DNA of 39,455 bases, from positions 1 through 39,455 of IMG/VR virus record IMGVR_UViG_3300022150_000087, one strand, 5' to 3'. This document shows positions 5,587 through 13,175 of the stretch, in pieces. Under the pieces are notes generated by a model. That model saw only the letters and a program-made list of their open reading frames with translations, made no database searches and had not been told where the DNA came from. Origin of the DNA: a virus. A program made the position numbers and the translations under genes. Positions within the stretch are counted from its first letter, which is position 1. Every line of letters starts with the position of its first letter.

Positions 5587-5813
5587 TCGGAGACAACGCC
5601 CTTGACAGCGCCAGCCGCTCACGCACGTTTGCAAAACGCCTAGACGATCCTCGGGATCCCAAATGCCCGATGCACCTGCGCCGGATCTGCGGCACCTGTG
5701 ATCATTTCGACGGACATCTGCGCCAGGCCGGCCGCGCGCTGTGTAAAGTGTTCGATGTCGAGCAAAGCCCGAGCAAAGGCGCGAAAAACTGCAAGCAATG
5801 GGTGCGTAAGTGA
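5583..5813 (+). CDS. Cys-rich putative zinc-binding protein, 76 aa
   Basis: Five cysteines (residues 28, 36, 39, 54, 70) include CGTC followed by DHFDG, suggesting a small zinc-binding fold. The first 25 residues look disordered. Start ATG overlaps the upstream stop and its own stop overlaps the GTG start of the winged-helix gene. Role unknown; DNA-binding accessory proteins of this size are common beside phage primases. Confidence 0.6.
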   Translation: MIGDNALDSASRSRTFAKRLDDPRDPKCPMHLRRICGTCDHFDGHLRQAGRALCKVFDVEQSPSKGAKNCKQWVRK

Positions 5814-6220
5814 GCGCGGCCGCAGCGCTCGCTGCTGAAATCATGGCACGCCCCGCTACCGACCGCCTCGGCTATGCCCTGGATCTGATCGACTACTATC
5901 TCGATCCCTTGCCGCCATTCTTTGATGCATTGCACGACATCGGCCTGCGCCTGTCGGCCAGCGATGCGCGTTTGCTGCATCTGCTTTACCGCCGGCGCGG
6001 TTCGTTTGTCTCCCTGCAGGCTTTGCTCGCCGCTGCTATGGGCGATCGGCCGGTTGCGGATTGGCCGGATATCTCGACCGTATATGCCCGGCTCTCAAAT
6101 CTGCGCCGTGCCTGCAAGTGCGCCAGCCTGCCGATCGCCATTCGTGCCTGGGCCGGTATTGGCTACCGCCTCGAGGCTCCGGTCGATTTTGAACTCGAGG
6201 GGATGCGCCATGCGGGATGA
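5810..6220 (+). CDS. OmpR/PhoB-type winged-helix protein without receiver domain, 136 aa
   Basis: The region from about residue 47 to 130 follows the OmpR-family effector pattern: LSASDARLLHLLYRRRGSFV as the first helices, then STVYARLSNLRRAC as recognition helix and AGIGYRLEAP as the C-terminal wing hairpin. The first 45 residues (helical, LDLIDYYLDPLPPFFDALHD) replace the usual receiver domain, so phosphorylation control is unlikely. The GTG start overlaps the upstream stop, and the 3' end overlaps the primase gene by 11 bases. It probably regulates phage transcription or takes part in replication initiation. Confidence 0.7.
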   Translation: MSAAAALAAEIMARPATDRLGYALDLIDYYLDPLPPFFDALHDIGLRLSASDARLLHLLYRRRGSFVSLQALLAAAMGDRPVADWPDISTVYARLSNLRRACKCASLPIAIRAWAGIGYRLEAPVDFELEGMRHAG

Positions 6221-8105: not shown

Positions 8106-9947
8106 ATGGGTATCGAAGATATTAAGCAGGCCGTGGCATCGGCCGAAGCGATCGCGCCGGATCCGGATCTCAGGATATCTCCGGAGCGCGATGCCGATCG
8201 GATGCAACCCGACGATCGCCTAGATCGCGAGGATCCGACCGTTGAGGAAATAGCAGAGGTTTTTGCCGGTGAGTTGCCGCTCAATGACTACGGCAACGGC
8301 CAACGGCTTTTGCACTATTACGGCTCCGATATGCTGTTCGTGCCGCGCCTCGGTTGGTATCGCTGGAAAGAGCAGCGCTGGCTCGCCGACGAGGACGAGC
8401 TCACGGTGCGCCGCGATGCGCAGCGGGTTGCGGGCCGGATCCTCGGCGAGATCGAGCACCTGGCCTTACCGCCGGTCGAGCGTAACGCGCTGGATCTGGC
8501 GCTCGAGACAAAAGACCAGTTGAAAGCATTAGAGGCCCAAGCCTCGGGCGTGATGAAAGCCAAGGCGCGCGGCAAGGGCGAAGAAGCCCCCGAGCTGAGC
8601 GCCGAGGATCAAAAGTGCTTGCTCGAGCTGCGCGAGATCGCCAGCCGCGCGATCGAGATCCGCGCCGCATTCGGCCGGCGCAAGGCATCGCATCGGAACC
8701 ACGCGAAAAGCTCGGGCAACACGTCGAAAATTACCAATATGCTGATCGAGGCGCGCCCCGAGAAAGCCTGCTCGATCAATGATCTCAATAAAGATCCGAT
8801 GATGGTCAACGTCGCAAACGGCACGCTTAAATTCTCCCTCGATCTCGATCCGCACGATATCGAATGGGGGCAGCGCGAGCCGCGCTGGCAAGTGAGCCTG
8901 CTCGATCACAATCGCGACGACATGATTTCAAAGCTGATGCCGGTTGAGTATGACCCAACGGCCAAATGCCCGAATTGGCGCAAGTTCCTCGACACCGTAC
9001 AGCCCGAAATCGAAATGCAGGAATTTCTGCAGCGGTATTGCGGCTATTGCCTGACGGGTTTGACCCGAGAACAAAAGATGGTGTTCAACTATGGCGGCGG
9101 TCGCAATGGCAAATCGACCTTTGTCGATACCCTCGCTTGGATCTTTGCAGACTACGGCACAACGGTCCCGATCGAGACGCTAACCGGCACCGAGCAGCGC
9201 AAGGGATCCGATGCGACACCGGATCTTGTCAAGCTGCCTGGCGCGCGGTTCGTGCGCGCCTCTGAGCCCGAGCAGGGAACGCAGTTCAAAGAGGCTTTGA
9301 TCAAAGCGCTTACCGGCGGCGAGGCCATAATGATCCGGCGCATGATGCAGGAATTTGTCGAGGTTGTGCCCGAGTTCAAGTTGATGATCTCGGGAAACCA
9401 TAAGCCCGAAATCCGCGGCTCAGATGATGGGATCTGGCGTCGGGTGTTGCTGATCCCCTGGCTTGTCCAGATCGCAAAAGAGGATGTCGATCGCAATCTG
9501 CCTGACATCCTCAAGCAAGAGGCACCGGGCATCCTGACTTGGCTGGTCGAGGGCTGCCTGCGCTATTTGCAAGAGGGGCTCGAGGAACCCGAGCAGATCC
9601 GCGCCGCGACCGAGGAATATCGCCAGGAAAGCGATAAGCTGCGCCTATTCTTGCAAACCGAGTGCCTAATCACCGGCGCGCCGGATGATTTCGAGCGCGG
9701 CCGAGATCTCGCCGATGCCTTTAACGCCTGGATGCTTGATCGCGGCGATGCGGTATGGGGCAAGCGGCAAATCGCAAAAGCTCTCAAAGCCCGCGAGGGC
9801 GTAGTCCAAGGGCCAGACGGGCAAAAATTCGCTTGGAAAAAACGCAGTGATAGCGGCTATGGCGGGATCCAGCTTACCAAGCCGGCGCGCAATCGCATTG
9901 CCGAGTATGGCGAGGAGCTGCGCTATGGCGCGGCACGCAAAGGCTGA
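8106..9947 (+). CDS. D5/P4-type primase-helicase C-terminal protein, 613 aa
   Basis: Superfamily 3-like replicative helicase. Visible motifs are Walker A GGGRNGKST (330-338), an acidic Walker B region (RFVRASEPEQG, about 382-391), motif C with sensor Asn (KLMISGNHKPEI, 425-436) and paired arginines (WRRVLLIPW, 444-452). Residues 1-270 are a helical N-terminal region with a long charged coiled coil (about 130-195). Residues 515-592 form the small C-terminal domain with LITGAPDDFERGRD and KKRSDSGYGGIQL. It works with the CHC2/Toprim primase encoded upstream and probably loads at the phage origin. Confidence 0.92.
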   Translation: MGIEDIKQAVASAEAIAPDPDLRISPERDADRMQPDDRLDREDPTVEEIAEVFAGELPLNDYGNGQRLLHYYGSDMLFVPRLGWYRWKEQRWLADEDELTVRRDAQRVAGRILGEIEHLALPPVERNALDLALETKDQLKALEAQASGVMKAKARGKGEEAPELSAEDQKCLLELREIASRAIEIRAAFGRRKASHRNHAKSSGNTSKITNMLIEARPEKACSINDLNKDPMMVNVANGTLKFSLDLDPHDIEWGQREPRWQVSLLDHNRDDMISKLMPVEYDPTAKCPNWRKFLDTVQPEIEMQEFLQRYCGYCLTGLTREQKMVFNYGGGRNGKSTFVDTLAWIFADYGTTVPIETLTGTEQRKGSDATPDLVKLPGARFVRASEPEQGTQFKEALIKALTGGEAIMIRRMMQEFVEVVPEFKLMISGNHKPEIRGSDDGIWRRVLLIPWLVQIAKEDVDRNLPDILKQEAPGILTWLVEGCLRYLQEGLEEPEQIRAATEEYRQESDKLRLFLQTECLITGAPDDFERGRDLADAFNAWMLDRGDAVWGKRQIAKALKAREGVVQGPDGQKFAWKKRSDSGYGGIQLTKPARNRIAEYGEELRYGAARKG

Positions 9948-10868: not shown

Positions 10869-11147
10869 ATGAGCGCCCACCCCCTTTATTGTCTTGAAGA
10901 TTTCCAAACCAAACTTGCCCGCGCGCAATCGCTTGCTCGGCAGATCCAGAATATCGCGTTGAATACCGACGCGAGGGATGCAGCGGAAGATCTGGATATG
11001 ATCGACGCGATTTCCGAAGCGTTAAGCCATCGCATGGCGTCGATGATTGAGGACGCGCATGCCGCGCACCGCCAATTGTCTCATGCGCTCAATAGTTTCG
11101 ATGCGCTGTCGGATGCCTTTGCCGAAATGGGGGGTGATAATGAATAA
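10869..11147 (+). CDS. Helical hypothetical protein of the BRO cassette, 92 aa
   Basis: Starts MSAHPLYCLEDFQTKLARAQ behind a strong GGAGG site and is almost entirely helical with heptad-like leucine and alanine spacing (IDAISEALSHRMASMIEDAH), so it may dimerise or bind the BRO protein. Its 3' end overlaps the BRO start by eight bases, indicating coupled translation. No family recognised. Confidence 0.65.
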   Translation: MSAHPLYCLEDFQTKLARAQSLARQIQNIALNTDARDAAEDLDMIDAISEALSHRMASMIEDAHAAHRQLSHALNSFDALSDAFAEMGGDNE

Positions 11148-11901
11148 TCTAGCATTCTCATTCGGAGCTTATGCCTTGCGTGTCCATGTAGACAGTGAAG
11201 GCTTTCCCTGGTGGGTTGGCGCGGATGTATGTGCGGCTCTTGAAATTGCCAACAACCGCGACGCTTTGGGTGGACTGCCCGAGAGTGAAAAGGGTGTCGA
11301 AATTATCGACACCCCTGGCGGCCGACAAAATATGCTGACTGTTAATGAGCCGGGTCTGTATAGGTTGATTTTCAGGTCGCGAAAACCGGCGGCCGAAGCG
11401 TTCAAGAATTGGGTGCTTCATGAGGTATTGCCACAAATACGCCGTGCCGGGCGCTACGAGATCCCGGTCGACGCCGCGCGGCATGACCCCCCCTTGTCGG
11501 CCGATTACTGGCTTGGCCTTGTGCGGGAGGTGCGCCTGACCCATGGGCGCGCGGCCGCTGCGCGTATTTGGTCAAACAGCCCTCTGCCTCAGGTGCCAGC
11601 TATGACGTCAACGCTGTCTGACGTCGATCAGCTCTGCGTCGACTACCTCGAAAATCACTGCAGAATAACCGGAAAACGTCATGATTTCGTTAGATCGAGC
11701 GTGTTGATCAATGAAATCGAAAACTACTGCATGCGTCGGGCTGTGCCTTGGCCAGGTGATCGCTCGGTGTCTGTCGCGCTGCGGCGTGTTGCGGTCATGT
11801 ATCGAGATCGGGAAACAGGCTTAAGCATGTGGCCAGTCAAGCGATCGGACACCGGATATAGCGGCATAAAAATTCACTCAGTTTCCCTATTCGACAGTTA
11901 G
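11140..11901 (+). CDS. BRO-N antirepressor fused to a primase-helicase-like C-terminal domain, 253 aa
   Basis: Residues 1-105 are a clear BRO-N domain (FPWWVGADVCAALEIANNRD, then LTVNEPGLYRLIFRSRKPAA and FKNWVLHEVLPQIRRAGRY). Phage proteins with this domain often antagonise repressors or regulate by DNA binding. Residues 118-155 form a helix-loop-helix linker (LGLVREVRLTHGRAAAARIW). Residues about 163-246 match the C-terminal domain of the phage's own primase-helicase (CRITGKRHDFVRSS, WPVKRSDTGYSGIKI). Translation starts inside the upstream gene's end. It may influence both lysogeny and replication; the second role is inference from the shared domain. Confidence 0.85.
   Translation: MNNLAFSFGAYALRVHVDSEGFPWWVGADVCAALEIANNRDALGGLPESEKGVEIIDTPGGRQNMLTVNEPGLYRLIFRSRKPAAEAFKNWVLHEVLPQIRRAGRYEIPVDAARHDPPLSADYWLGLVREVRLTHGRAAAARIWSNSPLPQVPAMTSTLSDVDQLCVDYLENHCRITGKRHDFVRSSVLINEIENYCMRRAVPWPGDRSVSVALRRVAVMYRDRETGLSMWPVKRSDTGYSGIKIHSVSLFDS
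11884..11901 (+). repeat. 18-bp direct repeat, right copy
   Basis: Exact second copy of TCCCTATTCGACAGTTAG; it forms the last codons and stop of the BRO gene. See the left copy at the end of the zinc-ribbon gene. Confidence 0.85.
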
Positions 11902-12075: not shown

Positions 12076-12391
12076 GTCGATCCCATGGATCCCGCTTTGC
12101 GGGATCAACGAAATGGGTCGATCGGCAAACTTTGGCGATAAAAATCAAGCGCTTGCGGATTTGAAATGGCGTTACGGGATCGACGGGAACGACTTTCGGG
12201 AGGATCCCTATTATGAAACGGGGTAAGGGGGGGAAGGCGAAAAAGAAAAGTTGGTTCTGCGTGTAGCCTCTGGTTTTCGTTCCCGTCGATCCCGTAAAGC
12301 GAACATTTGCGTTTATTATCAAAGTATTGCGTCTTTCCCGTCGATCCCGTTTCGATCCCCGTCAATCCCATAAAGAGACAGTCGATCCCAT
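12076..12391. repeat. Iteron-like GTCGATCCCRT repeats, replication-origin or operator candidate
   Basis: The 11-mer GTCGATCCCRT (or its complement) occurs at 12076-12086, 12285-12295, 12340-12350 and 12381-12391, with a one-mismatch copy at 12361-12371. Inverted copies lie at 12174-12184 (exact) and near 12114 (degenerate). The last three rightward copies are 20-21 bases apart, two helical turns. A GATCCCGC-TTT-GCGGGATC hairpin lies at 12088-12106, and an AT-rich tract with a 7-bp palindrome (AGATATT-CTA-AATATCT, 12407-12423) follows. The 550-bp gap 11902-12449 has no credible gene. Iterons beside AT-rich DNA and close to replication genes suggest an origin. Confidence 0.6.
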
Positions 12392-12449
12392 AAGAAAACT
12401 AGATATAGATATTCTAAATATCTCTTGTCTAAATATGGAGATTGATTGA

Positions 12450-13175
12450 ATGGCTTATGCTGATGTTGCTCTAAACCGTGATCGCGCTCGGGCTCGGTCT
12501 GTTGTCGAAAGCCTCTCGCGCCGCCTGCTTTCGGCTGTCGCTGCGCGCCGCCAAGGCATCGGATCCGGCGAGGGCGCGCGCGCGCCCCTGGCGCTCGGTC
12601 AGCCGCGCCGCTCCCTCTCGGCCATCACAGAAGCCAAAGCCGGCCCTACCGGCCCCGTTGAGGCTGCGGTCACGCCTCTAGGCTATAAGACGGCACGGGC
12701 CGCCATGCCGCCGTTCCTGGCACAGATGGACCGGCACGATCCAAAGCTGCAGGCCGCGACCATGCTCGCCGATGCCGTCGAGCGGATCGGCTCGATCAAA
12801 GGCGGTGACATGGGGGGCGGTGACCTTAAGGGCGGAATATCTGACGGCGGTGCAACGACCCGCGTTAAGCACGCGGCGCGGCTGCGATTGATCGAGGCGC
12901 TGGCGAATGGCTGGCCTGTCGATCGCAGTCATGGGGCTATCATGAAGGGCGCTGAGTGCGTTGTGATGGAGGTGCGTCGACAGCGTGGAATTGCCAAGGA
13001 TATAAGGGCGATGCGGCTGCTCGAGCTGATCTGCATCGAGGGCTTGGATATGCGTCAGATCCTCGACCTACACGGTTGGTCAGGTCATAGCAGAGAACGC
13101 AAGGCGCTTGGTGCGGCTGCGTCTGTTCTGCTCGATGATGTGGCCGAGGGGCTTGGCTTGGGCCGTGGTCGCTGA
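12450..13175 (+). CDS. DUF6456-like putative DNA-binding protein, 241 aa
   Basis: The first 110 residues are Arg/Ala-rich and poorly structured. A Gly-rich stretch (MGGGDLKGGISDGGATTR) leads into a helical C-terminal domain (about residues 140-236: KHAARLRLIEALANGWPVDR, then GLDMRQILDLHGWSGHSRER). That domain recalls the HTH-like domain found in alphaproteobacterial DUF6456 proteins and their phage relatives. GGAG precedes ATG 12450. It lies between the iteron field and the packaging genes, so it could bind the iterons or act as a late regulator. Confidence 0.6.
   Translation: MAYADVALNRDRARARSVVESLSRRLLSAVAARRQGIGSGEGARAPLALGQPRRSLSAITEAKAGPTGPVEAAVTPLGYKTARAAMPPFLAQMDRHDPKLQAATMLADAVERIGSIKGGDMGGGDLKGGISDGGATTRVKHAARLRLIEALANGWPVDRSHGAIMKGAECVVMEVRRQRGIAKDIRAMRLLELICIEGLDMRQILDLHGWSGHSRERKALGAAASVLLDDVAEGLGLGRGR

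Follow-up and report, generated by a model that had tools for sequence, protein, structure and literature searches.

An antirepressor-type regulator in the phage DNA analysed here ends in a domain that is homologous, by sequence comparison, to the C-terminus of the phage's own primase-helicase. The DNA, called the window below, is the whole stretch of 39,455 nucleotides taken from IMG/VR record IMGVR_UViG_3300022150_000087 (positions 1 to 39,455), and the phage, which has an integrase and a Cro/CI-type repressor gene on the minus strand, belongs to the temperate type. The regulator is a BRO-N protein of 253 amino acids (BRO, 11140-11901, plus strand, like every BRO and primase feature of the window given below), and its gene lies between that of the primase-helicase (8106-9947) and a candidate origin made up of iterons. 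We propose that the BRO tail reads the iterons of the primase, whereby the regulator would sit at the origin, affect helicase loading and tie the early switch to replication. We put the probability of this reading at roughly 0.45.

Sequence homology of the BRO and primase tails

The two proteins resemble each other over about their last 85 residues. In a single BLASTP comparison, residues 169-245 of BRO aligned with residues 515-590 of the primase (77 columns, one gap, 30% identity, E 2e-7), and the motif pairs CRITGKRHDF/CLITGAPDDF and KRSDTGYSGIKI/KRSDSGYGGIQL sit within the aligned region. The Smith-Waterman score of the two tails was 85, as compared to 62 for the best of 1000 shuffles, and when the BRO protein was searched against the window's own record the only matches were BRO itself and the primase tail. 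A single pair at 30% identity over just 77 residues could still be taken for a chance likeness between two small basic domains. This was ruled out by the shuffles together with profile comparison, since five antirepressor-type tails aligned profile to profile with nine primase tails of related phages at 99.3% (E 2e-20), and larger tail sets did so at 99.5% (hhalign, E 1e-22). In addition, a hidden Markov model (HMM) of either tail set recovered most of the other set (E 1e-8 to 1e-14). The shared predicted fold and the recent copies of own-primase tails in relatives, both described below, also speak against coincidence, to which we give a negligible probability. The likeness of the two tails, noticed in the original prediction from the letters of the window, is thus confirmed, and we regard the tails as homologous on the strength of these comparisons. 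A tblastn search of the phage collection with the window tail gave no match, and the primase tail compared with the PDB by sequence gave chance matches only.

The primase-helicase is of the P4 family (D5_N, PF08706, E 1.1e-23; TIGR01613, E 1.2e-69), with an SF3-type helicase and a winged-helix tail whose core is modelled at residues 511-590 (9636-9875). BRO begins with a Bro-N domain (residues 14-98, 11179-11433) that passes the curated cut-off of Pfam PF02498 by far (71.4 bits vs 25.6, E 1e-19), and the N-terminal part of its model resembles the N-terminal domain of granulovirus Orf22 (4ye7, Z 10.6). The protein matches the anti-repressor family Ant (phrog_130, E 6.7e-40), and its putative antirepressor activity is an annotation by homology. 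The domain is followed by a conserved helical linker, WLxLVREARxxxGRxAAxxxWxxSPLP (residues 121-152, 11500-11595), and by the winged-helix tail (residues 161-246, 11620-11877). Within the tail, the predicted secondary structure and the alignment to the primase place a recognition helix at residues 207-220 (11758-11799), which aligns to helix 3 of the primase tail, and a wing containing KRSDTGYSGIKI at residues 229-246 (11824-11877).

Predicted structure of the tails

Both tails were modelled by AlphaFold2 with the same order of elements, i.e. helix, short strand, helix, helix, strand, wing and strand, and are thus predicted to be winged helices. The BRO model had a mean predicted local distance difference test score (pLDDT) of 74, and the primase tail model a pLDDT of 83.7 and a predicted template modelling score (pTM) of 0.80. 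The primase tail model matched the origin-binding domain of phage P4 (1ka8, Z 8.2, 2.8 Å, 86 residues aligned), a viral PrimPol tail (Z 8.4) and the RFX DNA-binding domain (RFX-DBD, Z 8.1), and the BRO tail model matched RFX-DBD 1dp7 (Z 7.0) as well as Orc1/Cdc6 winged helices, but these Z values are close to what a common arrangement can yield and it is therefore the sequence homology that bears the argument. Among the 50 matches listed for the BRO model, 1ka8 was absent.

The original prediction had identified the tail as the small domain found at the C-terminus of D5/P4-type helicases, which agrees with the 1ka8 match of the primase tail and with Pfam results from two relatives. The Pox_D5 family (PF03288) scored above its gathering threshold in Ant of Rhizobium phage RR1-A (26.4 bits vs 21.4, E 9.7e-6) and barely above it in Ant of L024 (21.6 bits; L-numbers denote related loci), and it gave no match at E<=1 in the BRO or primase protein of the window. 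The C962R tail has been described as resembling the P4 origin-binding domain and Rfx1, whereas the tail of vaccinia D5 folds differently (PMC10516667), and for this reason 'P4-type' is a fitter name for the tail than 'D5'. Separately, a Bodo saltans virus protein with a T5orf172 domain (BFVD A0A2H4UUN4) resembled the primase tail fold (Foldseek E 0.044), a hint that the domain may be shuffled in giant viruses too.

A candidate origin beside the BRO gene

Directly downstream of the BRO gene are GTCGATCCC iterons (12.08-12.45 kb), located beside an AT-rich stretch. The array at 12076-12391 holds seven GTCGATCCCRT sites (at most one mismatch) and further units with a TCCC core. Counted by the same rule, the window has 11 such sites, as compared to 1.6 expected, and seven of the 11 fall within the array. 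The adjoining AT-rich stretch (12362-12475) includes the 50-mer with the highest A+T content in the window (78%) and is a candidate unwinding element. Repeated short sites and an AT-rich element close to the primase gene, as in an iteron origin of the P4 type, are thus all present, and the region from 12076 to 12475 is, judged by its sequence, probably the replication origin of the phage. The array is also the candidate target shared by the two tails.

A conserved protein of 241 amino acids is encoded directly downstream of the iterons (12450-13175, plus strand). Homologs were found in 101 loci, and the protein had no match in Pfam, PHROG or NCBIfam; a role in replication or at the origin is possible for this family. 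In most relatives an array of TCCC-core or other lineage-specific repeats is found at the same position, just upstream of the gene for this family, with units that are often paired about 9 bp apart, and in several genomes the array directly adjoins the fused gene. By the [AG]TCCC pattern the arrays of L008, L009, L013 and L018 are weak, and that of L011 is built of CTCCCTGA units instead. The relatives L004, L007, L010 and L012 share this layout, whether they carry the fused protein or lack it, and we therefore consider the array to be part of the replicon rather than of the BRO protein. This indicates a probable origin for the group of phages that carry this primase.

Across 43 phages, iteron similarity tracked primase similarity (r 0.30). 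A recognition code from wing to iteron is not claimed from these data, as the partial correlation was weak and the helicase body correlated better.

Recurrence and age of the fusion

Scanning of viral contigs yielded 138 distinct primase tails, of which 117 came from loci with at least 4.5 kb of downstream sequence. In 13 of the 138 a gene close to that of the primase encodes an antirepressor-type partner that shares the tail. The N-terminus of the partner is Bro-N in eight (the window, L006, L011, RR1-A, L044, L045, L127 and L177) and Phage_pRha in two (L050, E 1.7e-25; L059, E 1.4e-10), while in L008, L009 and L024 it is weakly similar to both families. The linker is kept in relatives with Bro-N or with these weakly Bro-N/Rha-like N-termini. 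Hence, the tail is found on further BRO-N proteins, and judged by these sequences the fusion arose repeatedly, on two N-terminal families (Bro-N and Rha). The C-terminus of the anti-repressor family PHROG 2011 is the same domain (E 1.4e-9). When the RR1-A tail was compared with the phage collection, the clearly annotated matches, besides RR1-A itself, were primases, and a search for the tail in 385 whole genomes of one class returned a Salipiger primase as the sole match. With an RR1-A-like fused protein as query, one full-length but divergent match was obtained in a bacterial genome of that class (L291), a Bro-N-type protein whose tail is of this kind but has diverged strongly (domain E 5e-4).

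A maximum-likelihood tree placed the tails of the two Rha-type regulators as sisters of the primase tails of their own phages, with support of 100/96 for L059 and 98/95 for L050. The tails of these regulators (L059, 8918-9646; L050, 9742-10587) are 72% and 53% identical to the respective primase tails. A different history was obtained for the window. Its BRO tail clustered, weakly, with those of other BRO proteins (in a group with L018, L006 and L011, 87/77), and a clade of the BRO tail with its own primase tail (together with that of the close relative L004), as expected from a recent duplication within this phage, was rejected (p value of the approximately unbiased test, p-AU, 1.5e-6). Calling the tail a copy of the domain in the phage's own primase is accordingly correct as far as homology is concerned, but not in the sense of a literal or recent copy. 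Pairing with the own primase was also rejected for L006, L011, L024 and L008/L009 (p-AU 4e-5 to 0.03). A single clade of all antirepressor tails was rejected as well (p-AU 0.02), in a test weakened by long branches, which also render the deep branching of the tree uncertain. Taken together, the trees argue for at least two recent captures of a phage's own primase tail in addition to older fusions common to several phages, that of the window being one of the older kind.

Within-genome match of the predicted DNA-contacting elements

We compared the predicted recognition helix and wing of regulator and primase within and between genomes, with permutation inside the two main groups. In 12 genomes the similarity of helix and wing was 1.79 for own pairs as compared to 1.34 between genomes (P 0.0002, a value that, like those that follow, is optimistic because the match had been spotted by eye before testing). 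Without the two recent copies the match was retained (own 1.49 vs 1.22, P 0.006), and the rest of the domain gave P 0.23. In the window's group, the five old pairs, each of which had been rejected as an own-copy pair (p-AU 1e-6 to 0.03), showed the same pattern, with 1.84 vs 1.33 for helix and wing (P 0.016) and P 0.63 for the rest of the domain. Dropping any single genome left the helix and wing match at P <=0.034.

The wing of BRO shares eight of 12 residues with that of its own primase, but only one of the eight corresponding codons is identical, and the wing of L050 similarly has eight identical residues and one identical codon. A wing that is the same in protein and different in codons fits selection on the protein rather than recent gene conversion, and the codons argue against such a conversion in the window.

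These results bear on two other explanations of the tail. It could be a product of ordinary domain shuffling, i.e. one more DNA-binding module on an antirepressor, with operators or other sites away from the origin as its targets. Proteins of the Bro network exchange domains freely (PMC10111431), the window tail is an old acquisition and the RR1-A-like group lacks the within-genome match, all of which suit shuffling, but it leaves unexplained why two phages took up the tail of their own primase, why the predicted DNA-contacting parts have remained matched in the window's group and why the iteron array is found directly beside the fused gene in several genomes. We regard shuffling of this kind as possible but doubtful, and take a general DNA-binding role at other sites as the main null hypothesis. 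Alternatively, the BRO tail may pair with the primase's winged helix and block helicase assembly or origin binding, as a copy-number control resembling P4 Cnr. A dimer interface could have been kept by the common ancestry of the tails, and P4 cnr is known to control copy number (PMC8628076). However, in the old pairs the match lies in the helix and wing that are predicted to contact DNA and not in the rest of the domain, and we consider a protein contact to be distinctly improbable.

A possible link between the switch and replication

Antirepressors are commonly viewed as acting on repressors and initiators as acting on origins. BRO would be a two-part regulator that joins both, with an antirepressor-type Bro-N domain and a winged helix of the kind by which P4-type primase-helicases recognize origin repeats. 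The tail and the primase-helicase of the phage would share the iterons at 12.08-12.39 kb as binding sites, and the regulator, once at the origin, would compete with helicase loading or modulate it, thereby coupling the early genetic switch to replication. Binding of the same DNA by both proteins gains indirect support from the origin-like conserved array, from the own-tail capture in two phages and from the predicted DNA-contacting residues, which match inside genomes of the window's group. Both DNA binding by the tails and the role of the array as origin are conditional here, as is the sign of the effect, where limitation of replication through competition for sites seems likelier than stimulation. 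An influence on lysogeny, or on the choice between lysis and lysogeny, may follow.

Several observations weigh against such a role. Only 13 of the 138 relatives have the fusion, so that most phages with this primase live without the fused protein. The Rhizobium RR1-A-like group, taken alone, had no within-genome match of helix and wing (P 0.62), and the match as a whole, first seen by eye, is based on few genomes. In L008/L009 the array is weak and kilobases away from the fused gene, and among the 43 phages helix and wing added little to iteron similarity beyond what the helicase body gave (partial r 0.087, P 0.04).

If the proposal is true, a DNA-reading domain of the initiator on a regulator gives a physical route from a decision protein to the control of replication, and it predicts that both tails bind the same iterons. 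It would also provide a candidate function for the C-terminus, so far unassigned, of antirepressors of the PHROG 2011 type. More generally, and more tentatively, temperate phages may time and again fuse the domain by which their own initiator reads the origin to switch proteins and keep the DNA-reading surfaces matched, so that the regulator of lysis and lysogeny competes with the primase-helicase at the origin or steers it, as a general link between switch and replication.

Relation to known systems

The P4 alpha protein binds its own origin repeats through a winged-helix C-terminal domain (PMC4234260). Its origin-binding domain (1ka8) has the same position in a P4-family primase-helicase as the domain that our primase tail model matches, and the P4 system includes an iteron origin. 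Unlike P4, the window has the domain twice, on the primase and on the Bro-N regulator, and DNA binding by either is a prediction. P4 Cnr is comparable by role, as a separate phage-encoded regulator of replication in an element whose primase is of the P4 type.

Odn of phage ICP1 is likewise a chimera with the DNA-binding domain of a replication initiator, and its action at iterons is proven (PMC8263062). However, Odn is a T5orf172 nuclease directed against a satellite origin, whereas the window encodes a Bro-N regulator with a tail like that of the phage's own initiator; capture of an initiator domain is thus seen outside the conflict between satellite and phage. The relative of the satellite initiator's origin-binding domain in Odn, which acts at the satellite's iterons (PMC8263062), makes it conceivable that BRO is a weapon or decoy in superinfection, by which the regulator of a lysogen occupies the origins of related incoming phages and stops their replication. 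We find this very unlikely, as Pfam detected no nuclease domain in BRO (Bro-N being its sole domain above cut-off), the gene adjoins the phage's own candidate origin and the tail resembles that of the own primase.

Close to BRO in architecture are Ant of RR1-A (NC_021560.1) and PHROG 2011, which combine Bro-N, a helical linker and a Pox_D5/P4-type winged-helix tail, and in RR1-A the primase gene lies about 1 kb upstream. The RR1-A tail differs in being shorter and divergent, in belonging to the group without a within-genome match and in not being annotated as a primase-like domain. The Rha-type regulators of L050 and L059 also have, fused to a regulator part, a winged helix with homology to the primase tail of their phage, but with Phage_pRha in place of Bro-N and with a tail that is a recent copy of the own primase's.

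Domain swapping in the Bro network (PMC10111431) and the capture of an initiator's DNA-binding domain in Odn (PMC8263062) are already known. The papers searched describe neither a Bro-N or Rha protein that ends in a primase tail nor antirepressors whose tail is of the P4 origin-binding type, those with a tail recently copied from the phage's own primase included, although an early mention is possible in the 2002 Genome Biol survey of KilA-N/Bro-N shuffling.

Other features of the early region

An open reading frame at 5810-6220 encodes a winged-helix domain of the OmpR type standing on its own (Trans_reg_C, E 9.1e-7), which is unusual for the early region of a phage.
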